From Myxococcaceae bacterium (GTDB lineage: Bacteria; Myxococcota; Myxococcia; Myxococcales; Myxococcaceae), in the NCBI GenBank assembly GCA_019686135.1, contig JADGHL010000009.1:1-64000 (forward strand): 64,000 bases of DNA. The letters are read 5' to 3'. This document shows, in pieces, positions 25,851-59,783 of the stretch. Position 1 is the first letter of the stretch, and the number at the start of each line of letters is the position of its first letter. The position numbers and the translations under genes were made by a program. A model generated the notes under the pieces. That model did no database searches. It was not told where the DNA came from and saw only the letters and a program-made list of their open reading frames with translations.

Positions 25851-28800
25851 GGGTGAGGGTCTTGCCGGACGGCGCGCGCGTCGAGCACGCCATGGTGCGC
25901 GCGGCGGCGGAGGACCGTGGCTTCGTCGACGGGTCCAGCTGGTTCAGCTTCGGCCAGCTCGTCGATCTGCTCGGCGGGGCGCGGTTCCTCGAGCGCCGGC
26001 CGTGCTCGCCCCTGACCGCTTGCGTGGTGCTGTGGGCGTGCGCCCGGAAGGTCGGTCCGGGGCCGTTTGGCGACTTCGTGCAGGAGCCCGCCTTCGCGCG
26101 CGGCGCCCTGGACCTGTTCCAGGAGCTGAAGTCCGGAGGTCTGGATCCCGTAGGGTTCCGCGTCGCGGTGGAGCGTTTCCCGGCCTCTCGCATCGACCGC
26201 GCGCGGCATCTGGCGAAGCTCTACGAGGCCTACGAGGAGAGCCTGAAGGAGCTGAAGCTGGCGGACCGCGAGGACCAGGTGATCGGGGCGCTCGGAGCGC
26301 TGCGCCAGCACGGGCTGCCGAAGACGCTCACGCCGGTCCGTTCGCTGGAGTTGAGCGGCATCTTCGACTTCCCGTGGTCCCGCCGGGAGCTGTTGATGGA
26401 GCTCGCCCACCGCTGCGAGGCGGCGCAGATCCACTTCTCGCTCACGGTCCCGGCCGGCCTCTCTCCGGAGGTGGACGGCGCGGTCGATCCGTTCCTCACC
26501 GAGTTCGAGCGCCGCGCCCAATCGTGGCGGCACGTCGAACTGGCGAAGGAGGACCTCACCCTGGCGACGCCGCCGCGGCCGCTGGCAGGGCTGGGCGCGA
26601 AGCTCTTCTCGGCGAAGGGGGCGTCGCAGGGATCGGAGCCGGCGCCCGGGCTGGCGCTGTTACGCGCGGCCAGTCCCCGCCACGAGGTGCGGGTGATTGC
26701 CCGGGGCGTGCTGGCCCGCATCGAGGAGGGCACGCCGCCCGAGCGGATCGCCGTGGCCTGGCCGGATCTGGGCGAGGAGGCGGAGTGGATCGTCGAGGAG
26801 CTGGAGGCGCTCGGGGTCCCCGCGCGCGTGCGGCGCGGCATGCCGCTGTACGCCACCTCCGCCGGGAAGGTCGCGCTGGATCTCCCGCTGCTCGTCGATG
26901 ACGGCTTCCCCGCAGAAGACGTGAGTCGCTGGGTGGGCTCGCGGTACTTCCCCGAGATCTCGCGGCGCGCGCCGCCGTCCGCGGCTGCGTTGCTGGCGCT
27001 CGCTTCGGTGCGGGACAACCAGCTCGGCGCCGAGGATGGGCGGGGCGCCTACGAGGTGCGGCTCAACGCATTGTTGCGGCGGCTGGAGGCGCGCGATTCC
27101 GGCGGGCGGCACAAGCAGGTGAATGCGCTGCTGGAGGCGTGCCGCCGGCTCATCACCGTCTGCGGGCAGCTCCCCGCGGAGGGGAAGGCGGCCGACCTGC
27201 TCGAGACGTGGTGGCACGCGCTCGGCGAGCTCGGCCTGCCCGAGGCCGTGCGTCAGCCGGAGCCTCGCGGTGCCGAGGGCACGGCGTTCGGCCGCGCGGT
27301 GCTGCGCGCACTGGCGCGCGATCAGGCGGCGTTCGAGTCTTTGCGCGCGCTTCACGATGAGCTCAAGGTCGCGCTGCGCGACTCGGGGGCCGGCGCCACC
27401 CGCATGGCGCGCCGCACCTTTCACAGATGGCTTCTGGACGTGGCCCGCGATTTCAACCTCCTGCCGCGCGGACCCCGTGGGGGTGCAGTGCACGTGCTGG
27501 ATGTCCGCGAGCTGTGGGGCCGCGGCTTCGAGCACGTCTTCGTGGGTGGCTTCACCGACGGGCGCTTCCCCGGCCGGGAGACGCCGCACCCGCTGTTCCC
27601 CGAAGAGGATCGGATCCTCGTCAACGCCTGGCACAAGCGGGACGTTTTCCGGCTGCACACCGGGGAGGGTGAACGGCGGATTCCGCACCGGCTCGCGGTG
27701 GACCGGCTCCTCTTGCACCAGGCGCTCTCGGCGGCGGAAGCGTCGGTCACGCTCACCTATCCCGCGGAGGCGTCCGGGGGGGCCGAACAGGTCCCTTCGC
27801 CGTTCTGGGACGAGCTCATCCGGCTCACCGGCGTGCGCCCGGTCTCCGTACCGCTCCGGCCCGTCCCGCCGCTGGACGAGGTCCGAAGCGAGCTCGAGCT
27901 CCGGGAGCGCACCGCGCTCGAGTTGTTCAGTCCGCCCGAGCTGCGCGTGGCCGATCCCGACCCAGCGGCCGCGGTGCTTCGGACCGCCCTGGCTGGCGAG
28001 GCTTGGCTCAAGGAGGCAGAGGCGATCGCGGCGATCGACGCCGAGCGCCTCACCTTCTTCGGCGACCCGGAGCGGCCGCCCGGACCCTGGTCCGGCCTGG
28101 CCCACCGCGACGATCTCGCCCCGGCGCTCGCCCGCGCGTTCGAGTTCGGTCGCGACCGGCCTCTCTCCGCGTCGATGCTGCAGCGGTTCGGCAACTGCGC
28201 GTTCCAGGGGTTTCTGTCCTTCGCGCTCCGGCTGAAGGAACCGGAGGAGCCGGGCGAGGAGATCGACGCGCGCGGGCAGGGGAGCTTCTGGCACCGCGTG
28301 CTGGAGCTGCTCTTCCCGAAGCTGAAGGAGCGGGACCTGCTCAGCCGAAAGCCGGAGGACCTCCCGCCCGAGGTCATCGACGAGGCGCTGGCGCAGGCGG
28401 CGGCGGATGCCGAGGCCACCGGGCACACCGGTCACCCCGCGCTGTGGCGGCTGGGCCGCGAGAAGGCGCGGCGGATGGTGCGGCGGGTGCTTTCGTTCGA
28501 GGCGCGGGGGCTGCCCTGGCATTTCCTCGAACCGTCCCGGACCGAGCTCACGTTCGGACGCGAAGGGGCGGAACCGCGCTGGCGCGAGGTAGCAATCCCG
28601 GGCGCGGACGGCGAACCGCCGATCCACGTGGAGGGGAAGATCGACCGGATCGACACCGGCAATGGAGCGCTCGGGGTGGTGGACTACAAGTCGTCGCGTG
28701 TGAGCAGGGGCAAGGCGCTTTTGGAGGCGCTGCTCGTGCGCGAGTTCCAGCTCCCGCTCTACCTCTACGCCGCGCGGGCGGCCGGGCACGGGGGGGCGCT

Positions 28801-29080
28801 CAAAGCGGCGTGGCTGTCGCTGAAGGACGGCGCGCCCGTTGACCTGGAAACCGAGCTCCGCAAGCACGAGCTCACGCTCGAGGATCTGCTCACCACCGAC
28901 CCCGTGCGCCGCGCCGAGCTCGAGCAGAACGAAAAGAAGAACCTGATCACCGCCGTGCAGCGGCTCGTCAGCGGCCTGAGGCAGGGCAGGTTCCCCGCGC
29001 GGCCGGACGACTGTGGCTTCTGCCCGTACCAGCGGGTGTGCCGGATCACCCAACGCCGGATGCCGGAGGCGACGCCGTGA
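25832..29080 (+). CDS. addB: AddB-type PD-(D/E)XK nuclease subunit of a helicase-nuclease
   Basis: A 1082-residue protein matching the large helicase-like nuclease subunit of AddAB/RexB systems that process double-strand breaks for recombination. The C-terminal nuclease carries HVEGKIDRIDTGNG, then VVDYKSSRVSRGKALLEA and QLPLYLYAA. The iron-sulfur-type cysteines are present: one in QRFGNCAFQGFL and three in DDCGFCPYQRVCR. The N-terminal half has degenerate helicase features but lacks a Walker A motif, so it cannot hydrolyse ATP, as known for AddB proteins of some lineages. The start at ATG 25832 is chosen because the protein begins shortly before RVRVLPDG; ATG 25802 is an alternative. Its stop overlaps the next gene start (GTGA). 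Confidence 0.85.
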   Translation: MAGRGTRVRVLPDGARVEHAMVRAAAEDRGFVDGSSWFSFGQLVDLLGGARFLERRPCSPLTACVVLWACARKVGPGPFGDFVQEPAFARGALDLFQELKSGGLDPVGFRVAVERFPASRIDRARHLAKLYEAYEESLKELKLADREDQVIGALGALRQHGLPKTLTPVRSLELSGIFDFPWSRRELLMELAHRCEAAQIHFSLTVPAGLSPEVDGAVDPFLTEFERRAQSWRHVELAKEDLTLATPPRPLAGLGAKLFSAKGASQGSEPAPGLALLRAASPRHEVRVIARGVLARIEEGTPPERIAVAWPDLGEEAEWIVEELEALGVPARVRRGMPLYATSAGKVALDLPLLVDDGFPAEDVSRWVGSRYFPEISRRAPPSAAALLALASVRDNQLGAEDGRGAYEVRLNALLRRLEARDSGGRHKQVNALLEACRRLITVCGQLPAEGKAADLLETWWHALGELGLPEAVRQPEPRGAEGTAFGRAVLRALARDQAAFESLRALHDELKVALRDSGAGATRMARRTFHRWLLDVARDFNLLPRGPRGGAVHVLDVRELWGRGFEHVFVGGFTDGRFPGRETPHPLFPEEDRILVNAWHKRDVFRLHTGEGERRIPHRLAVDRLLLHQALSAAEASVTLTYPAEASGGAEQVPSPFWDELIRLTGVRPVSVPLRPVPPLDEVRSELELRERTALELFSPPELRVADPDPAAAVLRTALAGEAWLKEAEAIAAIDAERLTFFGDPERPPGPWSGLAHRDDLAPALARAFEFGRDRPLSASMLQRFGNCAFQGFLSFALRLKEPEEPGEEIDARGQGSFWHRVLELLFPKLKERDLLSRKPEDLPPEVIDEALAQAAADAEATGHTGHPALWRLGREKARRMVRRVLSFEARGLPWHFLEPSRTELTFGREGAEPRWREVAIPGADGEPPIHVEGKIDRIDTGNGALGVVDYKSSRVSRGKALLEALLVREFQLPLYLYAARAAGHGGALKAAWLSLKDGAPVDLETELRKHELTLEDLLTTDPVRRAELEQNEKKNLITAVQRLVSGLRQGRFPARPDDCGFCPYQRVCRITQRRMPEATP

Positions 29081-32000
29081 GCCTCTCCCCCGAAGCCCTG
29101 CTCGCGCCGCGGGAGGCGCCCTCCGAGCCGCTCGCGCTCGAACGCAACCTCGCGCTGATGGCCGGTGCGGGGGCGGGCAAGACGTACTCGCTCATCACCA
29201 TCTGCCTGCACCTTCTGGGCGGAGCGCGCCGTGATGCCACTTTGGTGAAGCCGGCGGAGCTGTTCCTTCTGACCTTCACCGAGAAGGCGGCCGGCGAGAT
29301 GCGCGCGCGGCTCCGCACGCGGGTCGACCGGTTGGCACGGGACCCCACCGCCGCGGACGAGGAGAAGGAGCTGGCCGCGTCGTTCGCGCGGGAGGGGCGG
29401 CCGTTCCCGCCGCAGGATTTCTGGCGGCGCGTCCGCGACGATCTCGGCGCGGCGACCATCGGCACCTTCCACTCGTTGTGCGTGCAGTTGCTCCGGCGCG
29501 CCCCGGCCGGGTTCGGCGTCGATCCCGCGTTCCAGCTGCTCGAGGAGGGGGAGGCCGCCCGCATCCTCCACGACACTGCCGAGCGGATCGTGCTGGAGGC
29601 GCTGGAGCGCGAAGAGCCCGGGGTGGTGGCGCTGTGCCGGGACATCCCCTTCGCCGGAAGCGGCCGCGCCGAGGGTCTCGTCGACCTCCTCTGCAACGTG
29701 TTCAACAAGGTCCGCGAGGAGGGCCTCTCGCCGGCGCGGATCCCCATCACCGACGAGGGCCGTGCCCGCCGCGACTTCGACGCCGCGGTGGCGCAAGTGC
29801 GCGATCAGGTGCAGCGGGCGATCGACGCCGACCTGCAGGGGCGAAGGCAGTTCGGTCCGGTGCTGACCCGGATCGCGCGCGGCCTCGAAGGGATGGACGT
29901 CGCCTCGTTCCTCGCTCCCGACCGCTGGCCCGCCATCCGCAACGCGATCGACTCCGAGAAGCGGCTGGCCAACCAGCGGGAGGAGATCAAGCGGGTGAAG
30001 TTCCTCCTTCTGGGCAAGAAGGACGAGGACCTCATCGGCCTTCATGGGCACTACGCCGCCTGGGTGGTGGCGGCGCAGGAGGCGGCGTTCCGATCGCTCC
30101 TCGTGACGCTGCAGGCGCGCTACCGGGCCGAGCTCGACAAGCGGGCGGTGCTCGACTTCTCCGAGCTGTTGATCCGCACCCGCAGGCTCCTCCGCGATGT
30201 CCCCGACTTCCGCCGCGAGGTGCAGGGCCGGGTGCGCGCGCTCCTGGTCGACGAGTTCCAGGACACCAACCGTCTGCAGCTGGAGCTGGTGACGCTCCTG
30301 GCCGAACGCCGGGACGGCGCGCCCCGCCTGGTGCAGGACGGCGACGAGGAGCCGGACGAGGGCGGGGACGGGCAGCTCGGCTTCGTGGCGCTGGACGGCC
30401 GCCGCGGTCGGCCCATCCCCGTGGAGGAGGTGCCGCTCGAGCCCGGGCTGCTCGCCGCGGTGGGCGATCGGAAGCAGTCCATCTACGAGTTCCGCGGGGC
30501 GGACGTTTCCGTGTTCGAGGTGCTGGCGAAGCAGATCGAACGCGACGGAGGCGCGCGCGCCTTTCTGCAGACCAACCGCCGCTCGTCGCCTGCGCTTCTG
30601 GACTTTTTCAACGCCGCCTTCGCCCGGGTGATGGCGGTTCGCGAGGACGCGCGCGACTACGAGGTCGCCTACGTCCCCGCTTCGGACGATCTGCGCGCGC
30701 ACCGCCGTCAGCGGGTGACCCCCCCGGTCGTGGAGCGGTTGATCTACGCGCCCGGGGAGACGGCGGAGGCGTGCCGGCTGCAGGACGCGGACGCAGTGGC
30801 GCGGCGGCTGAGGCTTCTGCTCTCGGAGCAGGGAGGAGAGGTGGTGGTAGGGGAGGACGACGTCCCGCGGCGCGCCCGCGGTGGGGACGTGGCGATCCTC
30901 TTCCGCCGCTTCACCCACCTGGAGCTCTACCGGCAGGCGCTGATCCGCCACGGCGTCCCGCACCGGGTCGTGCGGGGCCGCGGGTTCTATGGGGCGCAGG
31001 AGGTGCTCGACCTCGCCTCGCTGCTGGCGCTCGTCGCCGCTCCCGACGACGGCATCGCCCTGGCCGCGGTGCTGCGCTCGCCGCTGGTGGCGCTCAGCGA
31101 CGCGTCGCTCTTCCAGGTCGCGTGGGAGAACCATCAGCGCCTGTCGCTGGATGGACTTCGGCAGCCCGGGCGATTGGAGGGGCTGCCCGCCGACGAACGC
31201 GCGCGGCTGGATAGGCTTCTGGCGCTCTATCCCAGGCTGCGCAAAGAGCGCGACCGGCTGGGGATCCGGGTGCTTCTGAAGGTGGCGCTCGAGGAGACCG
31301 GGTATCCGGTCGCGATCGCCGGCACGCCGTACGGCGAGCAGGCGCTGGCCAACATCGACAAGCTTTTGGAGCTCGCCGGACAGCGCGACGCCGCGGGGAT
31401 GGGCGACTGCGCGCGGTTCGCGCGCGAGCTGATCGCTCTGGCGGAGGCCGAGCCCGACGAGGCGCAGGCGGACGTGCTGGATGCCGGCGATCCACGCGCG
31501 GTGCAGCTGTTGACCATCCACCGTGCGAAGGGCCTGGAGTGGCCGGTGGTGGTGGTGCCGGACATGGCGTACCGCAACCCCACTCCGTCGGGCCGGGTGG
31601 TCTTCGAGCGCCGGCTCGGGCTGGCGATCAAGCCGTGGATCGGCGACGAGCTGGAGCCCACGCCCACCGCGCGCCACCAGCGCGCCATGGCCGAGCTGCA
31701 ACGGCGCGAACAGGCCGAGTCTTTGCGCATCCTCTATGTCGCGCTCACCCGCGCGCGCGACCACCTCATCCTCTCCGGCCAATCGCCCCGTCCGGCTCGG
31801 GGCACGTGGCGGACGATCCTCGACGGGCTGATCGACGACGATTCCGGATTGCGCGGGATGGTGCGGGACGTCCTCGTCGAGGAGATCGCCCTTCCTCCAC
31901 CGGCGCCGCCGGCGCCCGCCGAGCCATCGGAGCGGTCGCGGGCGCGGGTGGAGCAGGTCCTCACCCGGGTGCGTGCGCCGACGCCGGTTCAGCCCCGCGA

Positions 32001-32811
32001 GGTGGTGCTGCCGGTGACCCAGCTGCAGGACTACTTCCTCTGCCCGCGGCGCTACCTCTACGCGCACGAGGTCGGCCTCTCCGAGCACCCGATGGTCTTC
32101 GAGCGCGAGGAGCTCCCCGACGGCGAGGCGCCGGATGCAGGCGGAAGCCGCAGCGATCCGCGGACCCGCGGCACGCTCGCGCACGCGCTGCTCGAGCACG
32201 TCGAGTGGGAACAGGTGCGCCGCGGCGGCCGAGAGCTGCGCGCGCACCTCGAGGACGTGCTCTGGGCGCAGGGCGCCAGCCCGAAGGACCGGGGCCACCA
32301 GGAGATCCTCGACGACGTGGAGGCGTTCCTCTCCACCCGGTTCGCCGCCCGACTGGCCGAAGCCGGCGCTGCCCGCGTGCACCGCGAGCTGCCGTTCCTG
32401 CTCCGGATCGAGGCACAGGACGGGTTCGCGCTGCACGTGAAGGGGAAGATCGACCTGCTCTTCGAGGAGGCGGACGGCAGTGGGCTCGTGCTCGACTACA
32501 AGCTCAGCCGCCGCCACCCCGCGGGGCTGGAGCCGTACGCCTTCCAGCTCGACTGCTACGCGCTGGCGGCGCGCCAGTACGTCCACGAGGGCGTCCCGGT
32601 GAGCACGGGGATCGCGTTCCTCAAGGAGGGCCGGCGGGAGCCCGACCTGCGGCCCGTGGCGGACGTCGATCCCCGGGAGCTCTCGCGCCGACTGGTGGAG
32701 GGCGCGCGCGCGCTGCTCGAGCACTCGCGCCGGTTCGAGTGGCCGGGACAGCCGCGTGAACGCTGCCAGAACATCCGCTGCGGTTTTCAGTACCGGTGCC
32801 ACCCGGAATGA
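29077..32811 (+). CDS. addA: AddA-type UvrD-family helicase-nuclease
   Basis: A 1244-residue superfamily 1A helicase with a C-terminal nuclease. GTG 29077 overlaps the addB stop (GTGA), and GGAGG sits upstream. Motifs in order: Walker A LMAGAGAGKTYS, motif Ia TFTEKAAGEMRAR, GTFHSLC, motif II LLVDEFQDTNRLQLE, motif III VGDRKQSIYEFRGAD, motif IV QTNRRSS, motif V TIHRAKGLEWPVVVV, motif VI ILYVALTRARDHL. The PD-(D/E)XK site is GKIDLLFEEADG with LVLDYKLSR. Together with AddB it unwinds and degrades broken DNA ends until a regulatory site is met, then loads RecA. The nuclease region, about 1080-1244, is complete. Confidence 0.93.
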   Translation: MSLSPEALLAPREAPSEPLALERNLALMAGAGAGKTYSLITICLHLLGGARRDATLVKPAELFLLTFTEKAAGEMRARLRTRVDRLARDPTAADEEKELAASFAREGRPFPPQDFWRRVRDDLGAATIGTFHSLCVQLLRRAPAGFGVDPAFQLLEEGEAARILHDTAERIVLEALEREEPGVVALCRDIPFAGSGRAEGLVDLLCNVFNKVREEGLSPARIPITDEGRARRDFDAAVAQVRDQVQRAIDADLQGRRQFGPVLTRIARGLEGMDVASFLAPDRWPAIRNAIDSEKRLANQREEIKRVKFLLLGKKDEDLIGLHGHYAAWVVAAQEAAFRSLLVTLQARYRAELDKRAVLDFSELLIRTRRLLRDVPDFRREVQGRVRALLVDEFQDTNRLQLELVTLLAERRDGAPRLVQDGDEEPDEGGDGQLGFVALDGRRGRPIPVEEVPLEPGLLAAVGDRKQSIYEFRGADVSVFEVLAKQIERDGGARAFLQTNRRSSPALLDFFNAAFARVMAVREDARDYEVAYVPASDDLRAHRRQRVTPPVVERLIYAPGETAEACRLQDADAVARRLRLLLSEQGGEVVVGEDDVPRRARGGDVAILFRRFTHLELYRQALIRHGVPHRVVRGRGFYGAQEVLDLASLLALVAAPDDGIALAAVLRSPLVALSDASLFQVAWENHQRLSLDGLRQPGRLEGLPADERARLDRLLALYPRLRKERDRLGIRVLLKVALEETGYPVAIAGTPYGEQALANIDKLLELAGQRDAAGMGDCARFARELIALAEAEPDEAQADVLDAGDPRAVQLLTIHRAKGLEWPVVVVPDMAYRNPTPSGRVVFERRLGLAIKPWIGDELEPTPTARHQRAMAELQRREQAESLRILYVALTRARDHLILSGQSPRPARGTWRTILDGLIDDDSGLRGMVRDVLVEEIALPPPAPPAPAEPSERSRARVEQVLTRVRAPTPVQPREVVLPVTQLQDYFLCPRRYLYAHEVGLSEHPMVFEREELPDGEAPDAGGSRSDPRTRGTLAHALLEHVEWEQVRRGGRELRAHLEDVLWAQGASPKDRGHQEILDDVEAFLSTRFAARLAEAGAARVHRELPFLLRIEAQDGFALHVKGKIDLLFEEADGSGLVLDYKLSRRHPAGLEPYAFQLDCYALAARQYVHEGVPVSTGIAFLKEGRREPDLRPVADVDPRELSRRLVEGARALLEHSRRFEWPGQPRERCQNIRCGFQYRCHPE

Positions 32812-50151: not shown

Positions 50152-50646
50152 ATGGCAAACCACCCGCTCGATCCGGTCCGCGCCATAGCGATGAAGTACC
50201 CCGGCGCGGAGAAGGCGTTCCTGTTCGGGGACCATGAGGTCTTCCGGGTGAACAAGAAGGTGTTCGTCTGGCTGGGCCGGCGCTCCACCGGCGGCTACGG
50301 GATCTCCGTCAAGCTCAAGGACTCCCAGCCGGCTGCGCTGATGCTGCCGTTCTGCAAGGCGTCCGGCTACGGCATGGCGAAGTGGGGCTGGGTCGATGTC
50401 GAGTTCCCGAAGGGCAAGCCGCCGCCGATGCAGTTGGTCAAGCAGTGGCTCGATGAGAGCTACCGCCACACCGCGCCGAAGAAACTGCTGAAGGCCTGGG
50501 AAGCGGGCACGCTGCCGAAGGAGGAAGGGACGAGCGGCGTGACGGCCGGGACCGGGACGGCGGCGCGCCGGAGCCGGCGCACATCGCGATCCGGGAGCGT
50601 GTCGACCCGGAGCCCGCGTGGCAGGTCCAGTCGCCGCGCTCAGTGA
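50152..50646 (+). CDS. MmcQ/YjbR-family protein with basic tail
   Basis: A 164-residue protein. Residues 1-125 match the YjbR (MmcQ) fold, a small alpha/beta domain of DNA-binding-like shape: YPGAEKAFLFGDHEVFRVN, KVFVWLGRR and WVDVEFPKGKPPP, ending KLLKAWEAGTLPK. The last 35 residues are Ser/Arg-rich and lack family resemblance; a shift by one base would give a more normal-looking sequence, so a frame error near 50525 is possible. It overlaps the convergent kinase gene by 7 bases. Bacterial function is unclear. Confidence 0.8.
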   Translation: MANHPLDPVRAIAMKYPGAEKAFLFGDHEVFRVNKKVFVWLGRRSTGGYGISVKLKDSQPAALMLPFCKASGYGMAKWGWVDVEFPKGKPPPMQLVKQWLDESYRHTAPKKLLKAWEAGTLPKEEGTSGVTAGTGTAARRSRRTSRSGSVSTRSPRGRSSRRAQ

Positions 50647-53324
50647 TGACCGCCGCGCGCCCGCTCGCGATTGATCGCCTCGCGCCTGGCGACTTCGGCG
50701 GCGGTCGGCAGCTCCACTTCCAGCCGCGTCGCCTTGCCGGGGAGGAAGTGCGTGGCGAACTCGGTGACCATCGCGCGCGGGTAGTCGAGCCGGAGCACGT
50801 GGGTCCCCGGCGGCAGCGACAGCGTGATCGGCGTCTGCCCCTTGAGCACACCGTCCACCTCCACCAGCGCCGCCACCGGTTTCTCGTCGAAGGTGGCGAT
50901 CACCAGCACCTCGCCGAGCTGCATCGTCTTGAGCGGCCGTAAGCCGCCCTTCATGAGGATCCGCTGCGGCGCAGCCGCCGTGCCCCGGCGCACATGCGGG
51001 CGCGGCTTCTCCGGCACGACGGGGATCGCCTCGTGACGCGCCTGGATCTCCTCGGCGGTGGCGGACGTGGTGCGCACGCTCTGCTGAGCCTTTGGCGCGG
51101 GCGGGGGCGGCGGGGGCGCCATGCCCAGCACCGTCATCGGGAGGGCCTCCGGCGGTGGCGGTCCGACGGGTGCGTCGGAGGGCCAGAAGATCGCCAGGAG
51201 GGAGAGCCCCACCGCGCCGGCCATCAGGCCTCCCCACACGACGAACGGCCGCCGCCGCCAGAACGGTCGGGGTGTGCTCGCGTACTCGTCGCGCCGAAGC
51301 GGGGTGAGCCCGCGCGGGGTGACATCGACCTCGGGGAGCGGGCCGGTCGCGCGGCGCTCGCCACTGCGCGTGCGTTGTGGGTGGGGCGACTCAACCGGAG
51401 CAGGGCGTGGCCGCTCCGTCGATACGGAGGAGGCGTGCGAGTGCTCGCCCCCCGGCGTCAGCGCAGCGAGTGGGCGCGTCGGCTCTGCCGCCGCCGGTGA
51501 TGCGTGCGGGGGCGCGCGCTCCACGTCTACTGGCGAGCCGCGAGAGTGGGAGGCCCCCGGCGCGACGGTGGGAGGGGACGTTGAGTCAGCCTGAACGGAC
51601 GAGGCGCGGGCGTGCTCGTTGTCCGCTGGTGCTGAGGTTCCGTGCTTATGTGCGGTGTCCGGCGCGAGCGGACCGTCGGGGCGTGCGGGCTCCGCCCAAC
51701 CTGAGGCGTGATGGCGCGAGCGCTCTGGCGCCGTCGGGGTGCCGTAGTGGGCGGTGCTGCGAGAATGCGCGCTCTCTGGTGCGAGCGGAGCGAGAGGGCG
51801 CGTGGGCTCTGCCTGCGCGGACGGGGCGAGCGGGTGGAGGTGATCTGCCGGTGCGGACGAGGCGTGCTGGTGCGCGGCATCCGGCGTGAACGGAGCGCCC
51901 GGGTGGGCGGGCCCGGCCGGATCGGATGAACCATGATGGCGCGACCGCTCTGGCGCTGTCGATGAGCCGTGCGGGTGGGCCTCCGCTTGCGCTCCTGCGC
52001 TGCGAGGGTGCGCGCCCTCCGGCGCGAGCGGAGCGAGAGGGCGTGTGGGCCCGGCCAGATCCGGAGCGTCGTGATCGTGAGAGAGCTCTGCCGGCGCCGA
52101 ACGCGAAGGGTTCGTGGGAACCGATGGCGCGTGCTGCGCCGATGGCGACGGGACGGGCAGGCGAGAATGCTGCGGTGGATGCGCGTGCTCCCCGGGAGCG
52201 CGCGAGGAGAGCGGGCGCGTGGGCTCCGGCGCTGCGGGCCGGGATGAGCGCCCGGGCACCGGCGCCGCAGCATCGATTGTGGCCGCGGACTCCGGCGCGC
52301 CGACGTCGACCGGACGTAATGGCTCCGCCGGCGGCCTCGCGAGTGGCGTGCGCGGTGCGGTGACTGCCTCCGGATCGACGGGCGGCTCCATCGCGCGCAT
52401 GGGCGCCGTGGCATCCGATGGTCCCGGAACCCGGAGCGCCTCCCGGCCGGGCAGGGTGGCCGCCTCCTCGGCCGCGGACGCCTCCACCGCGGGCTCCAGC
52501 GCCGCGCGGAAGGCCGCGTGGAAGTCGCGCACGGATGCGTACCGGCCGTCGGGTTGCAGCGCCATCGCGCGCGCGAGCACGGCAGACACCGCCGGCGGCA
52601 ACGTCCGCCGCAGCTCATGCGCTTTGGGGCGGGGCTGCGAAAGGTGGGCGCGCAACAGCGCCTCGCCGTCCAGACCGGAGAAGGGCGGTGACCCGGTGAG
52701 CAGCTCGAACAGCACCGCCGCCAGCGAGTACTGATCCGCGCGACCGTCGAGGTGCTTCTCGCCGAGGATCGCCTCCGGCGACATGTACCCGGGCGTCCCG
52801 TGCACGACGCCGGTCCGGGTCAGGGTGCTGTCGTGCGTCCGGGTGATGCCGAGGTCGATCAGCGTCAGATGCCCCTGGCGCGAGATCATCAGGTTCGAGG
52901 GCTTGAGGTCCCGGTGGAGCAGCCCCTGCGCGTGCAGATACGCGAGCGCGTCGCAGGCCTGATCGGCCACCGTGAGGACCTCGCGCAACGAGAGCCCGCC
53001 GCGCTCGAGCACCCGTTCGGCCAGCGTCTGTCCTTCGACGAACTGCAGCACCAGATAGGGCACGCCCTCGTGGCGGTCCATCGTGTGGAGCGAGACGATG
53101 TTCGGATGAGAGAGCCGCGCGAGCAGCGCCGCCTCGCGCTCCAGCCGCGCCACGGCGTCCTCGTCCATCGTCGTGGCGTCGAGCGCCTTCACCGCCACCT
53201 GGCGCCCCAGCCGAAGGTCGGTGGCGAGGAACACCGGGCCGCTCTGTCCTTCGCGCAGGACGGATTCGATCCGCCAGGTGTCGGCGAGGACGTCCCCGGG
53301 CTGGAGGTTCGCGGCGTGGCTCAT
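50640..53324 (-). CDS. Eukaryotic-like Ser/Thr kinase with His/Pro-rich linker and PEGA-like domain
   Basis: An 894-residue membrane kinase. The kinase domain is at 15-278: glycine-loop variant LREGQSGPVFLA, catalytic Lys K46, HRDLKPSN (D139), metal Asp in IDLGIT (D157, DLG instead of DFG) and TPGYMSPEA. All catalytic residues are present, so it should be active. Residues about 280-690 are low-complexity and rich in His, Pro, Ala and Ser, with internal repeats. One membrane helix lies at 693-714, and the outer tail ends with a PEGA-like domain (about 806-875, DEKPVAALVEVDGVLKGQTP). It overlaps the preceding gene's stop (ATGA). As the last gene of the TadE/TadG-like operon it may phosphorylate partners there. 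Confidence 0.9.
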   Translation of the reverse strand: MSHAANLQPGDVLADTWRIESVLREGQSGPVFLATDLRLGRQVAVKALDATTMDEDAVARLEREAALLARLSHPNIVSLHTMDRHEGVPYLVLQFVEGQTLAERVLERGGLSLREVLTVADQACDALAYLHAQGLLHRDLKPSNLMISRQGHLTLIDLGITRTHDSTLTRTGVVHGTPGYMSPEAILGEKHLDGRADQYSLAAVLFELLTGSPPFSGLDGEALLRAHLSQPRPKAHELRRTLPPAVSAVLARAMALQPDGRYASVRDFHAAFRAALEPAVEASAAEEAATLPGREALRVPGPSDATAPMRAMEPPVDPEAVTAPRTPLARPPAEPLRPVDVGAPESAATIDAAAPVPGRSSRPAAPEPTRPLSSRAPGEHAHPPQHSRLPVPSPSAQHAPSVPTNPSRSAPAELSHDHDAPDLAGPTRPLAPLAPEGAHPRSAGAQAEAHPHGSSTAPERSRHHGSSDPAGPAHPGAPFTPDAAHQHASSAPADHLHPLAPSAQAEPTRPLAPLAPESAHSRSTAHYGTPTAPERSRHHASGWAEPARPDGPLAPDTAHKHGTSAPADNEHARASSVQADSTSPPTVAPGASHSRGSPVDVERAPPHASPAAAEPTRPLAALTPGGEHSHASSVSTERPRPAPVESPHPQRTRSGERRATGPLPEVDVTPRGLTPLRRDEYASTPRPFWRRRPFVVWGGLMAGAVGLSLLAIFWPSDAPVGPPPPEALPMTVLGMAPPPPPPAPKAQQSVRTTSATAEEIQARHEAIPVVPEKPRPHVRRGTAAAPQRILMKGGLRPLKTMQLGEVLVIATFDEKPVAALVEVDGVLKGQTPITLSLPPGTHVLRLDYPRAMVTEFATHFLPGKATRLEVELPTAAEVARREAINRERARGGHH
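51585..52049 (-). repeat. Diverged repeats in the kinase linker
   Basis: Two units of about 80 and 74 codons start with PTRPLAPLAPE (residues 426 and 507) and share TAPERSRHH. A third, shorter and weaker unit follows to about residue 640. The repeats are rich in His (SRHH, AHQHASS, HKHGT). Confidence 0.7.
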
Positions 53325-54016
53325 GGCGAAGGTTCGTCCTCCCCAAGCGGATCCTCCACCGGCTGCCGGGCGGCGGCGCCCTCCATCACGGACACCGCCA
53401 CCTCCTGCTTCGACAGGGGCTGGATCACCACGCGGAGCGCGGTGCCGTCGTGTTCGAAGACGCCAGGCGCGGTCTCCTTGTACGCGGCCTCCGCGAAGAC
53501 GGCGCGGTGAAAGGCCCAGGCCTCCTCCTCCGTCGCCGGGGCGCGGTAGCTCACCATCCGCAGCCCTTCGGTGCGGCTCTGGATCACGCCGCGGGCGCCC
53601 GGCATCACCGGCGCGAAGTCCACCTCTCCCGGGGCGCGCCGTTCGGCGAGGAAGGTTTCGGTGATCAACGCGGTGGTGGTCCCATCCGCGTTGGGTTGCA
53701 GGAACACGGTGTAGGCGATGAAGGTGTCGGGATCGAGCCCGGTCACCTGCGACAGGGTCGTGCGGAGCGTCAGGTGTTCGGGCGGCGGGAGGAACAGACC
53801 CTTCTTCGTGAACTCGGTGCGGAAGTGCTGGAGCAGCTGATCCACGGTCTGCTTCGAACGCACCGCGTGGATCGCCACGGGGAGCCCGCCGGCCTCGACG
53901 CGTCCGGGCACGTCCACGGCGTCGAGCGCCTGGGGCACGTCCCAGACGTGCACCTTCGGCGGCTGTTGCGCCAGCGCGGAGGTAGCAACCATCAGGCAGA
54001 GCGCGACGACCCGCAT
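53321..54016 (-). CDS. Secreted protein of unknown function in the pseudopilin-kinase operon
   Basis: A 231-residue protein with a signal peptide (MRVVALCLMVATSALA). It starts in a TGATG overlap with the upstream gene stop and ends in an ATGA overlap with the kinase start. No motif is recognised; the body is a mixed alpha/beta domain with VHVWDVPQALDAVDVPGRVE and a later TTTALITETFLAERRAP. It is probably a periplasmic factor working with the TadE/TadG-like proteins. The ORF is open upstream of the chosen start but antisense to other coding sequence, so ATG 54016 was taken. Confidence 0.75.
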   Translation of the reverse strand: MRVVALCLMVATSALAQQPPKVHVWDVPQALDAVDVPGRVEAGGLPVAIHAVRSKQTVDQLLQHFRTEFTKKGLFLPPPEHLTLRTTLSQVTGLDPDTFIAYTVFLQPNADGTTTALITETFLAERRAPGEVDFAPVMPGARGVIQSRTEGLRMVSYRAPATEEEAWAFHRAVFAEAAYKETAPGVFEHDGTALRVVIQPLSKQEVAVSVMEGAAARQPVEDPLGEDEPSP

Positions 54017-55125
54017 CACCACGACGCCTTGTTGAAGACGGGCCTTTGGCACTGCGACCCGAGGAAACACTCGCCGCGATCCTGATACGCGTCGCGGTAG
54101 CGGTCCGAGTACGGAGTGGCCGGCCAGTAGCCGTCGTACGCGCTCGAGGTCGTCGCCTCCCGAGTCTTGAACTGGAACTTCTTCCCGTCGCTGCCGTCTT
54201 CGCCCATGAAGACGAACCGGAAGTCGCGTTCGTCGGTGGGAATCTGGAAGCCGAGCTCCGTGAAGGAGGGATCGATCGTGTAGAGCCGCGTGAGGAACGT
54301 GTCGATCGGGCTCTGGGTGCCGCCCTTCTTCGACATGTACTTCCGATACATCCGCTTCACGATCTGCTTGAAGGCCTGGTTCCCGGACTTGCCATATAGA
54401 CAGCTCCCGGCGCCGTTGGCGGTGCAGTTCGCCCACTCCTTTCCGGCGGCCGCGCTGGTGCCCGCAAGTCCCCAGTCGTCGATGGCGATCGCGAGCTTCC
54501 CTCTGCACTCCCCGTTGCGCGCGCGCCCGAAAGCGCAGACTGGGATCGCGGTGCGCGAGACGTGGCGCTCCTGGAAGAGGCCCGGGCCCTGGTCCATGAA
54601 GCTCTCCGGCACACCGAACATCCCGATCTTCGCGCGCGCGGAGCACTCGAGCCCGTCCACGCGCTTGCCCTGCCAGAGCGGGTGGTCGTAGCTGGCGTTG
54701 AGCACGTCGAACGCGGCGCGGGTCTGTCCGCCCACGCTCTTCGACTGGCGGAAGGGCGCCACCGCCTTCGGCGCGCAGTCCACTTCGAGCGCGCTCCCAC
54801 CGGCCACGCTCATCCGCAACGAACCTGAGCCGAGCTTCGTGGCGTCGAAGTCCCGGTACAGCCGCTGCGCCCTCTGTTCGGGTGTGCGGCTCTGGTCGTC
54901 CTTGAGCTGGTCCGGGCGGAAGAAGCGGTCGCGCGGGCTGCTGCGCGTGAAGTCGTGGGCCCTCAGCCCGGTCGTGTCGAACAGCGCGGAGGCCGCCGCC
55001 TGCTGGACCCTCAGCTTCAGGACGCCGAACTCCGCAAAGTAGATGCCGAACAAGAGCACGGTGACGAACACCAGGCTCCCCAGCGCCAGCTCCACCGTGG
55101 CCTGTCCACGCGGTCCGCTCTTCAT
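54016..55125 (-). CDS. TadE-like pseudopilin-type protein
   Basis: A 369-residue protein starting MKSGPRGQATVELALGSLV, a short basic N-region then a hydrophobic helix, as in TadE/TadG minor pseudopilins (Flp-type pili, GQATVELAL motif). The rest is extracytoplasmic with several Cys residues (CAPKAV, CSARAK, CAFGRARNGEC, CTANGAG, CFLGSQC), suggesting disulfides. The start overlaps the upstream stop (ATGA); the stop overlaps the next start. It probably sits in the inner membrane or a pilus-like filament. Confidence 0.8.
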   Translation of the reverse strand: MKSGPRGQATVELALGSLVFVTVLLFGIYFAEFGVLKLRVQQAAASALFDTTGLRAHDFTRSSPRDRFFRPDQLKDDQSRTPEQRAQRLYRDFDATKLGSGSLRMSVAGGSALEVDCAPKAVAPFRQSKSVGGQTRAAFDVLNASYDHPLWQGKRVDGLECSARAKIGMFGVPESFMDQGPGLFQERHVSRTAIPVCAFGRARNGECRGKLAIAIDDWGLAGTSAAAGKEWANCTANGAGSCLYGKSGNQAFKQIVKRMYRKYMSKKGGTQSPIDTFLTRLYTIDPSFTELGFQIPTDERDFRFVFMGEDGSDGKKFQFKTREATTSSAYDGYWPATPYSDRYRDAYQDRGECFLGSQCQRPVFNKASW

Positions 55126-56861
55126 GGCACTGCCTCGAAGCCTTCGCGCAGCAACAGATCCAGCGCCCGCGCCTGGTCGGGCTCGTTCAGATCGCGCCGG
55201 AGCGTGCGCATCACGTCGGTGCCGCGGTCGGCGTAGCGCTCGTCCACATCGGAGGCGACGAGGGTGGCGCGCCAGAACGGGTTGAGGAAGTTCGGCGGCT
55301 CGCGGGAGTGGTCCTTCCTCCCCGGGCCGGCAGGGCCGCGGTGGTAGTAGGTGAGGCCGGCGGCGATCGCCGTAGCGCGGCGCAAACCGGGGCGCTCGTC
55401 GCGCATGTCGAAGAGCGTGCCGGGCTGTCCGTCGCGGCTGAAGTTGAAGCGCAGCCGCAGCTCCCACGGATCCTGCGTGGTGCGCGCGGCGTAGTTGCGC
55501 TGGATGTTCACCAGGCTCTTCGGCTGGCCCCACACGTTCGCGCGCGGACGGTTGGTGTTGAGGTTGGCAGCGTTGTAGTCCACGAACGCGGGCCAGATGT
55601 TCACCCCGCCGGAGTCCGGATCGTCGACGAAGGTGTGGCGCCGATCCGGCCAGTACTGCCGCGGCGTCGTCCCGCGCGAGCTGGTGCCCCATTCGCGGTA
55701 GTCGAAGTCCTGGCCGCGCCGCCACATGTGGTTGTCGCGGTTGTCGTCCCGGTGGGTGCTGACGAGGTACCCGAAGGCGTCCTCGGTGGGTTGCGACACC
55801 TTGCACCCCGGGGGCGCGACGAAGGTGAAGGTGCCGCTGTCCTGCGCCCACGCACCGGTCGGCCGCCACTTCTCCGGCGCGTCGTGGATGCGATCGTAGT
55901 AGCGGTTCCACAGGGGCCGGTTGAGCGGCTGGCCGTCGAGCCCTTCGGTCTCTGCGGTCCCCACGCCGCGCCGCGGTCCCTCGTCGGAGAAATAGGACGT
56001 GCCATAGTGGGAGATCTGAATGGTCAGCGGCGTGGGGTCGATCACCTTGTTGATCCGCCGCTCCACGAAGCGCGCGGCGCTCATCGCGTCGGTCTCGCGC
56101 GTCCACTCGCGCGAGGAGGGGAAAGCCTCCACGCCGCGGGTGGCCATGGTGACCTGCACCATGTCGCGCGGGTGGGTCTGGCGCGGGCGGCCCTGCGCGT
56201 CGCGCGCCACCACGTCCTCGAGCTCGCGCTGGGTGATCCGCTGCCCGGTCGAGTAGAGCTCCTGGGGGGAGGACCGCCACGGGCTCCCGCGGCGTACGCC
56301 GTCGGCGATCCGCTGCGCGAGCGTCGGCCCTTTTGCGGGGACGATCTCGTCCATCATGTTGTCGTAGAGCAGGCGCTGGTGCTCGGCGATGAGGAGCGCG
56401 GTCCGGTAGAGGTCGCGGCGGATGTAGTCCGCGGAGAGGACGTCGCGGCCCTCAATGCCCTCGTAGCTGCCGGGCGGTTCGAAGATCTCGATCAGCCGGT
56501 TGTCCTCGTAGCAGATCTTCGCCTTCGCGTCGGACCAGTCGACGCCGCCGCAGCGCTGGCTCTCCAGCGCGGTGAGCACGTCGCGGGCCTGGTTGAGGAC
56601 CCCGTGGTAGAAGCCGGCCCACGACAAAAGCGACTGGGCGGCGGCGATCGACGCCATCTGCGCCACCAGCACTCGGTTCATCGACGAGATCGAATTGAAC
56701 GTCCGCGCGGTGAGCACCGCCTGGCTGTAGGCCGCGGCGTCGGCGACGATCTGCTGCTCCTGGCGTTCGTGAATGCGCGCGCCGATCCCGATGGTCATCA
56801 CCACCATCAGCGTCAGCAGCAGAAGGGTGAGCGCGAAGAGCACCAGCGTCTGTCCACGCAT
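55122..56861 (-). CDS. TadG-like protein with N-terminal hydrophobic helix
   Basis: A 579-residue protein starting MRGQTLVLFALTLLLLTLMV, a TadG-type N-terminus, followed by the conserved RIHERQEQQIVADAAAYSQAV. The long outer part has no recognised domain and contains ARGRPRQTHPRDMVQVTMAT and Trp/Arg-rich segments (WRRGQDFDYREWG). It starts in a TGATG overlap with the upstream gene stop and overlaps the next gene by 4 bases. TadG proteins are minor components of Flp pilus systems whose role is poorly understood. Confidence 0.8.
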   Translation of the reverse strand: MRGQTLVLFALTLLLLTLMVVMTIGIGARIHERQEQQIVADAAAYSQAVLTARTFNSISSMNRVLVAQMASIAAAQSLLSWAGFYHGVLNQARDVLTALESQRCGGVDWSDAKAKICYEDNRLIEIFEPPGSYEGIEGRDVLSADYIRRDLYRTALLIAEHQRLLYDNMMDEIVPAKGPTLAQRIADGVRRGSPWRSSPQELYSTGQRITQRELEDVVARDAQGRPRQTHPRDMVQVTMATRGVEAFPSSREWTRETDAMSAARFVERRINKVIDPTPLTIQISHYGTSYFSDEGPRRGVGTAETEGLDGQPLNRPLWNRYYDRIHDAPEKWRPTGAWAQDSGTFTFVAPPGCKVSQPTEDAFGYLVSTHRDDNRDNHMWRRGQDFDYREWGTSSRGTTPRQYWPDRRHTFVDDPDSGGVNIWPAFVDYNAANLNTNRPRANVWGQPKSLVNIQRNYAARTTQDPWELRLRFNFSRDGQPGTLFDMRDERPGLRRATAIAAGLTYYHRGPAGPGRKDHSREPPNFLNPFWRATLVASDVDERYADRGTDVMRTLRRDLNEPDQARALDLLLREGFEAVP

Positions 56862-57610
56862 CACGGACCTCCGCAGTTCGGCTGGTCGAAGAAGCCGGCG
56901 CGCTTCATCGCCGGGGTCATCATCCGCATCGCGGCGGTGGCCTGGATCGGGAAGACGTACTCGCCCGCCATGGTCCGGGCCTTGAACTCCCCGAGCACCC
57001 CCGCCTGCACCTCCGTGGGCGTGCGCTCGCGGGTCCACTGGGCGTTCTGCGCCGGCATCAGCGGGTTCTGCGCCGCATAGTTCCCGAGCCCCCAGGCGGC
57101 GAGCGTGGACCGGGCCATCACCCAGTTCGCGAAGGGGATCCGCATCGGGTACCAGAAGACCACCGTCGTCTCGAGCCGCGTGCGGTCGAGCTGATGGGGG
57201 CGATCCGGATCGTCGAACTGCGCGTCGTCCCGCCCGCCGGCGATCGCGTTGCGGATGCCCAGTTTGCGGAAGATCCAGATCACCGGTCCGCTCCGCCTGT
57301 CGTCGGTGGCGGGGTCGAACCGGTTGTCGCGGTAGCGGACGTACGCGTCGCGCAGCTTCTCCGGTGAGTCGGTGCGGGCGATCGCCGGGAGCACCGAAAC
57401 GAGCGCGGCGTCCAGCATCCGTTTGCAGCTGCCCTGGCTGAGCGACCCGGCGCGCGTGGCGTTGAACGCCGCGTGCTCGGTGAGCAGGCGCGCCTGCAGC
57501 ATGAGGAAGAGTTGGAGCGTCCCGAGCACCATGAAGACTGCCAGCGGAAGGGTGAGCGCAGCCTCCACGGCGGCTTGACCTCGCTGACCGCGCTGAGACG
57601 GTCTCGACAT
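56861..57610 (-). CDS. TadE-like pseudopilin-type protein, first gene of the operon
   Basis: A 249-residue protein starting MSRPSQRGQRGQAAVEAAL, with the TadE motif GQAAVEAALTLPLAVFMVLG and one membrane helix (about 20-40). The extracytoplasmic part ends in FDQPNCGGP. ATG 57610 is preferred to 57634 because it gives the shorter basic N-terminus typical of TadE. It diverges from uvrC across about 205 bases and heads the operon that ends with the kinase gene. Confidence 0.8.
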   Translation of the reverse strand: MSRPSQRGQRGQAAVEAALTLPLAVFMVLGTLQLFLMLQARLLTEHAAFNATRAGSLSQGSCKRMLDAALVSVLPAIARTDSPEKLRDAYVRYRDNRFDPATDDRRSGPVIWIFRKLGIRNAIAGGRDDAQFDDPDRPHQLDRTRLETTVVFWYPMRIPFANWVMARSTLAAWGLGNYAAQNPLMPAQNAQWTRERTPTEVQAGVLGEFKARTMAGEYVFPIQATAAMRMMTPAMKRAGFFDQPNCGGP

Positions 57611-57815
57611 TGGCGAGGGGATTGTCGGCCCCATGCGACGGGAGCGTGCATCGGACGAGCGGCCGTCGTTAAGGGGAGGTCCGCGAATTTTCGATGGATT
57701 CCCCTGCTGTGCGTAACGGGAATACCTTGCGGCGGGCAGGCGGCCGGCCGCGCTTCGAGCGATCGCCGAGGTTGCACCCGGCTCGTTGCTGGGACATCAA
57801 ACCGACGAACCCCGG

Positions 57816-59783
57816 ATGACCCCCGCGCTGAAAGACAAGATCGCTCACCTGCCCACCGAGCCGGGCGTGTACCTGATGAAGGATCGCCAGGGCGAGGTGA
57901 TCTACGTCGGCAAGGCGGTGAACCTGCGCAGCCGGGTGCGCAGCTACTTCACCCGCGGCGGCGACGAGCGCGCGTTCATCCCGCTGCTCGACCGGATCCT
58001 CGGCGACATCGAGACGGTCATCGTGGGCAACGAGAAGGAGGCGCTGCTCCTCGAGAACGAGCTCATCAAGAAGCACGAGCCGCGCTTCAACGTGAAGCTG
58101 CGCGATGACAAGCAGTTCATCTGCCTGCGGCTCGACGTCCGCCAGGACTACCCGCGGCTGGAGGTGGTGCGGCGGTTCCAGAAGGACGGAGCGCTCTACT
58201 TCGGGCCGTACTCCTCCGCGTCATCGATCCGGGAGACGCTGCGGATCATCAACCGCTACTTCCAGCTGCGGACCTGTTCGGACCACGTCCTGCAGAACCG
58301 CAAGCGGCCGTGCCTGCTCTACCAGATCGGCCGCTGCCCGGCGCCGTGCGTCTACGACATCCCGCGCGAGGATTACCACCGGTCGGTGAACGAGGCGGTG
58401 CTGTTCCTCGAGGGCAAGGCCAACGAACTGGTGGCGCGGCTCAAGCTGAGGATGCAGGAGGCCTCGCGCGAGCTGCGCTTCGAGGAGGCCGCGCGGATCC
58501 GCGATCAGCTCTTCGCGATCGAGCGCAGCCTCGAGCGCCAGAAGATCGCCACCAGCGAGCCGATCGACCAGGACGTGTTCGGGATGCACCGCGAGGGCGA
58601 GCGGCTGCTCATCTACGTGCTGTATGTGCGCCAGGGGCGGATCACCGGCGGGCAGTCGTTCCCGTTCGGCGGACAGGAGTTCCCCGACGCAGAGCTGATC
58701 GGTTCGTTCGCGAATCTGTATTACGGCAGCGAGAACTTCGTGCCCGACGAGGTGCTGCTCCCGGTGGAGCTGGAGGGGTGCGCGGCGCTGGAGGAGCTGC
58801 TTTCGGAGCGCAAGGGCGCGAAGGTCCGGGTCATCGTCCCCAGGCGCGGCGAGAAGGTGGACCTGGTGGAGATGGCCGCGCGCAACGCGCAGCAGGCGTT
58901 CGCCGAGCGCAAGCGCGATCAGAACGAGACGTTGGCGATCCTCGAGCGCCTCCAGAAGCGCCTGTCGCTGACGCGGCTGCCGCGGCGGATGGAGTGCTTC
59001 GACATCTCGCACTTCCAGGGCGCGAGCATCGTCGCCTCCCAGGTGGCGGTCACCGACGGGGAGACCGACAAGGCGCGCTACCGCCGCTTCAAGATCAAGA
59101 GTGTTCAGGCGCAGGACGACTTCGCCTCGATGTACGAGGTGATCTCCCGGCGGCTGCGGCGCGGGATCGCGGAGGGCGATCTGCCGGATCTGCTGGTGAT
59201 CGACGGAGGCAAGGGCCAGCTGGGCAGCGCGCACGCGGCGCTCAAGGACGCGGGGCTGGACCGGCAGATCGACGTGGTGGGGCTGGCCAAGTCGCGCGAC
59301 CTTCTGGCGCGCACCGCCGGCGGGCGGAAGAACCCGCTCGGACCGGCCGACGACGAGAAGAACCGCTCGTTCGAGCGCGTGTTCGTGCTGGGGCAGAAGG
59401 ATCCGATCGTCCTGCCGCCGAACTCGAGCGAGCTGTTTTTGCTCACCCGCATCCGGGACGAGGCGCACCGCTTCGCGATCACCTTCCAGCAGAACCTGAT
59501 GCGGAGGCGGAACCTCCGTTCGGCGTTGGAGGACATCCCCGGAGTGGGGGAGGGGCGGAAGAAGGCGCTCTTGCGGACCTTCGGATCGCTCAAGCGGATC
59601 CGCGAGGCGTCGATCGAAGCGCTCTCCGAAGTGGTGGGGCCGGCGGTGGCGGAGCGGGTCCACGCGTGGCTGCACGCGCCGCCGGACAAGGGCGCGGACG
59701 GAGATGCGGACGACGCTGTTCGGGAGGCGTCACTCGAGGACGCGCAATCCGACACGGCCGGATCCACGCCGCGGATCGCGTGA
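57816..59783 (+). CDS. uvrC: Excinuclease ABC subunit C
   Basis: A 655-residue nuclease that makes both incisions around damaged DNA held by UvrB. The GIY-YIG domain is at about 15-90 ([20 protein letters not shown]), the UVR domain near 205-245 ([19 protein letters not shown]), the RNase H-like endonuclease domain near 390-540 ([24 protein letters not shown]), and a helix-hairpin-helix pair at the end ([14 protein letters not shown]). MTPALKDKI at ATG 57816 is the chosen start. A terminator hairpin follows. Confidence 0.96.

Follow-up and report, generated by a model that had tools for sequence, protein, structure and literature searches.

The window analyzed here is the whole 64,000-nucleotide stretch (positions 1 to 64,000, forward strand) of contig JADGHL010000009.1 in the Myxococcaceae bacterium assembly GCA_019686135.1. 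It contains an operon of five minus-strand genes, here called A to E (Table 1), whose coordinates were all confirmed. Recomputation of the four junctions reproduced the coupling by 1- or 4-base overlaps reported in the first-pass annotation: the A/B and C/D junctions are TGATG sequences with a 1-bp overlap, and the B/C and D/E junctions are ATGA sequences with a 4-bp overlap. The ATG at 57610 was preferred as the start of gene A to the in-frame alternative at 57634. The operon is flanked on one side by yjbR, itself preceded by uvrB, and on the other by the divergent uvrC, and gene A is preceded by approximately 200 bp of non-coding sequence.

Table 1. The five operon genes and the adjoining intergenic region, in window coordinates.
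Feature	Position	Strand	Basis
Gene A, KilM-type minor pilin, 249 aa	56861..57610	-	TadE PF07811 above cut-off; homology to KilM-type genes
Gene B, KilN-type large minor pilin, 579 aa, presumed exposed tip	55122..56861	-	Homology; PF13400 just under cut-off
Gene C, KilL-type minor pilin, 369 aa, 8 Cys	54016..55125	-	Homology; TadE under cut-off
Gene D, secreted or periplasmic two-domain protein, 231 aa, unnamed family	53321..54016	-	Signal MRVVALCLMVATSALA
Gene E, membrane Ser/Thr kinase, 894 aa	50640..53324	-	Pfam Pkinase and PEGA, one TM
Intergenic region between the operon and divergent uvrC; presumed promoter region	57611..57815		Gap from gene A to uvrC (57816-59783)

The N-termini of A, B and C resemble those of TadE/TadG proteins, as had been proposed from the sequence, but at the level of Pfam profiles the proposal held for gene A only (TadE PF07811, 34.1 bits against a cut-off of 22.9). 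Gene B fell 1.3 bits short of the Tad profile PF13400 (21.0 bits, cut-off 22.3, E = 4e-4) and gene C fell 6 bits short of PF07811 (16.8 bits, cut-off 22.9, E = 0.007). Because the gene B homologues in loci L043 and L049 and the gene C homologue in L066 do pass the cut-offs, B and C were placed by homology and not by their own scores. Prepilin-like motifs were recognized by eye in gene A (RG|QAAVE, residues 10-16) and gene C (RG|QATVE), and a hydrophobic segment was computed behind the prepilin motif G|xxxxE in both; gene B has the G|Q and lacks the Glu at position 5. The structural model of gene B (overall pLDDT 74.5) consists of a confident long N-terminal helix (residues 2-102) and a mixed distal region that is partly below 50 pLDDT, and this KilN model found no match in the PDB.

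In tblastn comparisons covering 120 loci, among them the kil cluster II cassette, A, B and C emerged as three consecutive genes homologous to KilM, KilN and KilL. Gene A is mostly 40-57% identical to the KilM-type genes of other Tip cassettes and is homologous to the copy within kil cluster II (E about 1e-23); gene B is 53% identical to its orthologues, with at least one relative in 49 of the 60 related genomes searched; and gene C is 40-44% identical to the L043 and L044 copies. The A-B-C order, usually followed by D, recurs in most of the loci fetched. In L066, L079 and L081 (from the same genome and its relatives), the cassette is part of a larger locus that also has a small pilin-like gene and conserved neighbors, which in the same genome include genes for RcpC/CpaB and FHA proteins and two for T2SSF. 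According to Herrou et al. (2025, PMC12075869), Myxococcus xanthus has four KilLMN cassettes, each encoding a minor-pilin complex predicted to sit at the tip of the KilP pilus; these Tips were shown to be interchangeable on the Kil pilus, and deletion of all four cassettes abolished both pilus formation and killing. The same paper places KilM4, KilN4 and KilL4 (MXAN_4660, 4659 and 4658) in kil cluster II. Because the order and sequence of A, B and C match cassettes that include one in a kil cluster II-type layout, and given the findings of Herrou et al., we assign them as KilM-KilN-KilL. That they form a Tip cassette of the Kil (Tad-like) prey-killing pilus is well supported and very probable, and that they assemble and work as a Tip here is a prediction from sequence. 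The pilins are thus of a known kind, and the kinase-coupled operon is a new variant.

The resemblance to the M. xanthus Kil Tip complexes 1-4 (KilL1-4, KilM1-4, KilN1-4) extends to KilM-KilN-KilL minor pilins with TadE/TadG-like N-termini in a stand-alone cassette, to several paralogous cassettes per genome with the Kil core in trans, and to a D homologue beside the M. xanthus cassettes L113 and L139. The present operon differs from them in that it falls in a separate KilM clade, which excludes the two AM003 cassette types found and the kil cluster II type, and in that its five genes, with their tight 1-4 bp coupling, end in a membrane kinase. The Tip lineage described here is unmatched to any M. 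xanthus Tip located in the analysis. L113 and L139 were given no Tip numbers because a KilO-like small Flp gene was not seen between their C and D genes. With the TadE/TadF/TadG proteins of Tad loci, the cassette shares the N-terminal prepilin helix and the set of one small, one large and one medium pilin, but it is not beside a tad core, the distal region of its KilN is very large, and its B and C do not reach the Pfam cut-offs. Elsewhere in the collection, L045 (6261-16604, minus strand) carries two tandem Tip cassettes, one of which lacks D, on the two sides of a gene for a class I aminoacyl-tRNA synthetase, and L115, L146 and L162 (BNCN01, titled Comamonas sp. KCTC 72670) carry Tip cassettes that fall inside Myxococcus/Pyxidicoccus in the KilM tree; this record is probably mislabelled or contaminated.

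No core Tad genes were found near the cassette in the scanned flanks (uvrB and yjbR on one side, uvrC on the other), in agreement with the first-pass statement that a TadA ATPase, TadB/C platform, secretin and prepilin peptidase are missing there. The core is instead located on other contigs of the same genome. Contig C225 has genes for a secretin that bears a pilus N-terminal domain, for a fragment of an A24 prepilin peptidase, where the contig ends, for a T2SSE ATPase whose N-terminus is an FHA domain and for a double-FHA/TPR (2xFHA-TPR) protein, and with contig C114 the set also comprises RcpC and two T2SSF genes. The ATPase, secretin and peptidase are therefore not missing from the organism. 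The C225 genes correspond to KilC, KilA, KilF and KilD as described in PMC8460266, KilD by position and domain type. Orphan pseudopilins lacking a machine, as first proposed, were rejected since the Kil core is present in the same genome; the cassette is of the Kil Tip type, with its pilus machine encoded elsewhere. Two MshEN-domain proteins are also encoded in the genome's own kil cluster II region, along with an ECF sigma factor that is accompanied by a zinc-finger anti-sigma-like gene upstream of its Tip genes (L066:1851-3849 and L066:6457-8489, both plus strand).

The 120 loci, 80 of them from named records, were deduplicated to 94 distinct cassettes, 83 of which contain A, B and C together, and gene D is present in 73 of these 83 complete cassettes. 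D is kept even where the gene order is scrambled (D-A-B-C in L064, A-D-B-C in L057 and C-D-A-B in L076), its profile matches 98 of the 145 genomes of the order, and, besides adjoining the two M. xanthus cassettes, it is remotely homologous to the gene at the matching place in kil cluster II (hhalign probability 96.8%, E = 3e-10). D is thus a fourth conserved cassette gene. Its model (pLDDT 89.5) has two tandem strand-helix-strand units. Neither Pfam nor NCBIfam provides a family name for it, and assignment to a known fold was rejected because Foldseek returned nothing at E < 0.001, the best hit (MucB, E = 0.026, TM 0.19) not being meaningful. Discussion of D was not found in the sections of PMC12075869 and PMC8460266 covered here. 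Alongside the kinase, this uncharacterized protein, present in most cassettes, is a second part of the predation pilus that can be put to the test.

Gene E codes for a kinase domain (residues 20-285), a Pro/Ala/His linker (286-690), a single membrane-like segment (693-714) and a PEGA-like outer domain (about 800-872). The kinase domain scores 154.6 bits in Pfam and retains the catalytic motifs VAVK, HRDLKPSN and DLG, so that by its motifs E has a complete Hanks-type Ser/Thr kinase domain. The outer domain matches PEGA PF08308 at 27.2 bits (cut-off 20.8), and the 405-residue linker is rich in proline (19%), alanine (18%) and histidine (7%), all of which bears out the initial description of a membrane kinase with a His/Pro-rich linker and a PEGA-like outer domain. 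Third-position GC in the linker is 0.77, compared with 0.92 on both sides. The linker (window 51254-52469, minus strand) also contains imperfect repeats of PTRPLAPLAPE. Hanks-type PEGA kinases with the layout of E (kinase, long linker, one TM, PEGA) occur in many of the Myxococcaceae genomes searched; E differs from them in that its outer domain belongs to a small group found mostly with Tip cassettes, some members of which are pseudokinases.

Kinases are abundant in these genomes, with 54 in the present one and no fewer than 104 in every one of nine relatives, so that proximity of a kinase to a Tip says little by itself. Only 8 of the 94 distinct cassettes have a kinase within 1.2 kb, a number not clearly above the rough chance expectation of 3-4, and the other 86 have none, so other Tips do without a linked kinase. 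A role for the kinase as a universal Tip partner was rejected on this count. A significance of approximately 1e-10 (10 kinase neighbors, 32 flanks, three genomes) was not relied on, since the genomes were picked post hoc, the count was made by hand and some of the kinases are generic.

The picture differs for the outer domain of E. A search with its TM-PEGA region in 96 family genomes gave four best non-self matches at E < 1e-9 (G088, without a Tip or a kinase domain; G019:C31; G005:C674; and contig C175 of the window's own genome), three of which adjoin Tip cassettes (L043, L044 and L064), whereas no Tip gene was found in the 8-20 kb fetched around each of the next 15 PEGA loci. The window cassette groups with L043 and L044 as one clade in the KilM tree (support 100/99), and all three have a TM-PEGA kinase-type protein, with the kinase domain seen in two and cut by the contig end in the third. 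L064 and L076 form a second pair (support 97/85), both again with a TM-PEGA kinase-type protein; branches in this tree are long, and the joins L043/L044 and L064/L076 may be affected, according to a warning of the program. Contig ends cut off the kinase domain of L076 as they do that of L043, and the kinase-bearing cassettes number six and come from three genomes, for the most part fragmented metagenome assemblies; the Myxococcaceae concerned are poorly sampled (G019 being MAG SSF41 and G005 MAG-72). The nearest relative of the E outer domain, a stand-alone membrane-PEGA protein (L089:9240-9962, plus strand), has no kinase domain and no Tip nearby, and carries a repeated TLLINK motif in its cytoplasmic tail.

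ATGA overlaps join the kinase-type gene to its neighbor at four different junctions, namely D/kinase in the window, kinase/A in L044, kinase/C in L076, with the kinase upstream of C, and C/pseudokinase in L068, with the pseudokinase downstream of C. A single old insertion is hard to invoke for such a pattern. Two of the proteins are membrane pseudokinases coupled to a Tip gene: that of L044 (12053-13717, minus strand) has HRD changed to LGN, and that of L068 (11680-13062, plus strand) has the catalytic Lys changed to Arg, HRD changed to HGE and DFG lost, with the membrane segment kept in both. The L064 kinase has all catalytic motifs. The missing motifs argue against simple phosphotransfer in L044 and L068, and the kept membrane segment and Tip overlap suggest that a reader or scaffold role may exist beside or instead of it. 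The first-pass annotation had called the kinase a fixed partner and had proposed its absence from most relatives as the test of that claim. A kinase is indeed absent beside Tip cassettes at large (86 of 94), so a fixed partnership across Tips does not hold, but in the closest clade (3 of 3, with 2 of 2 in the second pair) it is fixed, in line with a dedicated partner. The kinase is thus specific to a few Tip lineages and not a general Tip partner. Within these lineages, a functional partnership between E and its Tip is moderately supported and probable.

The best reading of E is as a Tip-dedicated kinase or pseudokinase type that couples the Tip to the Kil machinery. In the mechanism we propose, a prepilin peptidase would process KilM, KilN and KilL, which would then come together at the tip of the Kil (Tad-like) predation pilus as a complex that both primes and caps it, the pilus itself being the product of the Kil core on other contigs. 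D may assist these pilins in the periplasm, as an accessory protein or in their assembly. With its PEGA-like outer domain, E would sense, directly or through D, what state the tip or the envelope is in where contact is made, and its cytoplasmic kinase domain would signal to the KilF-type FHA-ATPase and the KilD-type double-FHA protein, thereby licensing assembly of the pilus with its own Tip. From this arrangement we infer the direction of signaling, and the surface sensing suggested at first would be narrowed to signaling of prey contact or Tip state. We consider the chances of the explanation as a whole, a Tip operon with a Tip-dedicated transmembrane kinase coupled to an FHA-rich Kil machinery, to be about even, and we put forward the specific licensing step tentatively.

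A precedent of a kind, as an analogy only, is offered by the threonine phosphorylation pathway (PpkA-Fha1) of the P. aeruginosa T6SS, in which an envelope-spanning kinase and an FHA protein control the assembly of a contact weapon. Kil differs from it as a weapon and in its outer domain, and carries the FHA domain on the pilus ATPase itself. By the same analogy, E could act on the FHA proteins of the Kil machine, which are present in the genome, in a PpkA/Fha-type switch. An analogy between Kil and the T6SS threonine phosphorylation pathway is drawn in PMC8460266, which also reports that KilF carries an FHA domain and infers a contact-triggered, phosphorylation-type cascade from the FHA domains.

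Alternatively, the kinase could be the downstream output of Tip contact, controlling transcription (e.g., through FHA-sigma54 activators) and not the licensing of pilus assembly. Phospho-dependent control of transcription is a recurring Tip neighbor, as a fused FHA and sigma-54 activator gene lies within 700 bp of 34 of the 94 cassettes (e.g., L045:16903-18336, minus strand, and L113:4194-5621, plus strand; in 25 cases it is co-directional with the cassette, and in the 9 of one clade it is divergent), suggesting that such control recurs and is carried by different genes, and at L076 a kinase-type gene and an FHA-sigma54 activator occur together. However, the window cassette and most kinase-linked cassettes have no such activator nearby, and we consider this output role rather unlikely. 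A role of E mainly as a membrane scaffold or allosteric reader with dispensable catalysis would fit the L044 and L068 proteins, which retain the membrane segment and the 4-bp coupling, but it is unlikely for a protein that, like the L064 kinase, keeps every catalytic motif.

Hitchhiking, by which one of the genome's many kinases was inserted into the operon without relation to the Tip, draws on the kinase numbers given above, on the fact that most cassettes have none and on the generic kinases near L070 and L072. Against it, outer-domain relatives of E recur at Tip loci in varied positions, several with ATGA overlaps, whereas the 15 control loci have no Tip, and we hold it to be just as unlikely as the scaffold role. 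The cassette might also serve another Tad or type IV pilus, or a pilus-less orphan envelope complex, given that no core gene is adjacent and that the genome contains seven T2SSE-type matches. This we regard as very unlikely in view of the homology to Kil Tip cassettes and the Kil core with its FHA-ATPase in the same genome; Tips 1-3 of M. xanthus likewise lie in gene clusters apart from the core (PMC12075869).

Coupling of Tip and Kil machinery through E, the reading we prefer, bears on two questions left open in the Kil papers, namely how a prey-contact signal reaches the FHA-rich machine and how one Tip is chosen among several, the mechanism of Tip selection being called unclear in PMC12075869. 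A kinase co-translated with one Tip, with relatives at other Tip genes, some of them pseudokinases, is a concrete and deletable candidate for both. E is thus a candidate for the missing signaling enzyme of the prey-killing pilus in an uncultured predatory soil bacterium. It may even be the first recognized case of a whole family of membrane kinases and pseudokinases, each dedicated to one particular Tip, whose state it reads in order to switch the FHA-controlled Kil machine; Tip choice during predation would then be a phospho-signaling decision, taken Tip by Tip, although we consider this doubtful. The word kinase is absent from the main text of PMC8460266 and PMC12075869, and our literature searches of titles and abstracts returned no paper linking a kinase to Kil Tips.

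Two further features of the window lie away from the operon. At 25853-32811 (plus strand), two overlapping genes, one for a PD-(D/E)XK nuclease protein and the other for a UvrD helicase that also has a PD-(D/E)XK nuclease, resemble an AddAB-type recombination pair, and the region 15029-21022 (plus strand) codes for a large bacterial alpha-2-macroglobulin of 1997 aa.
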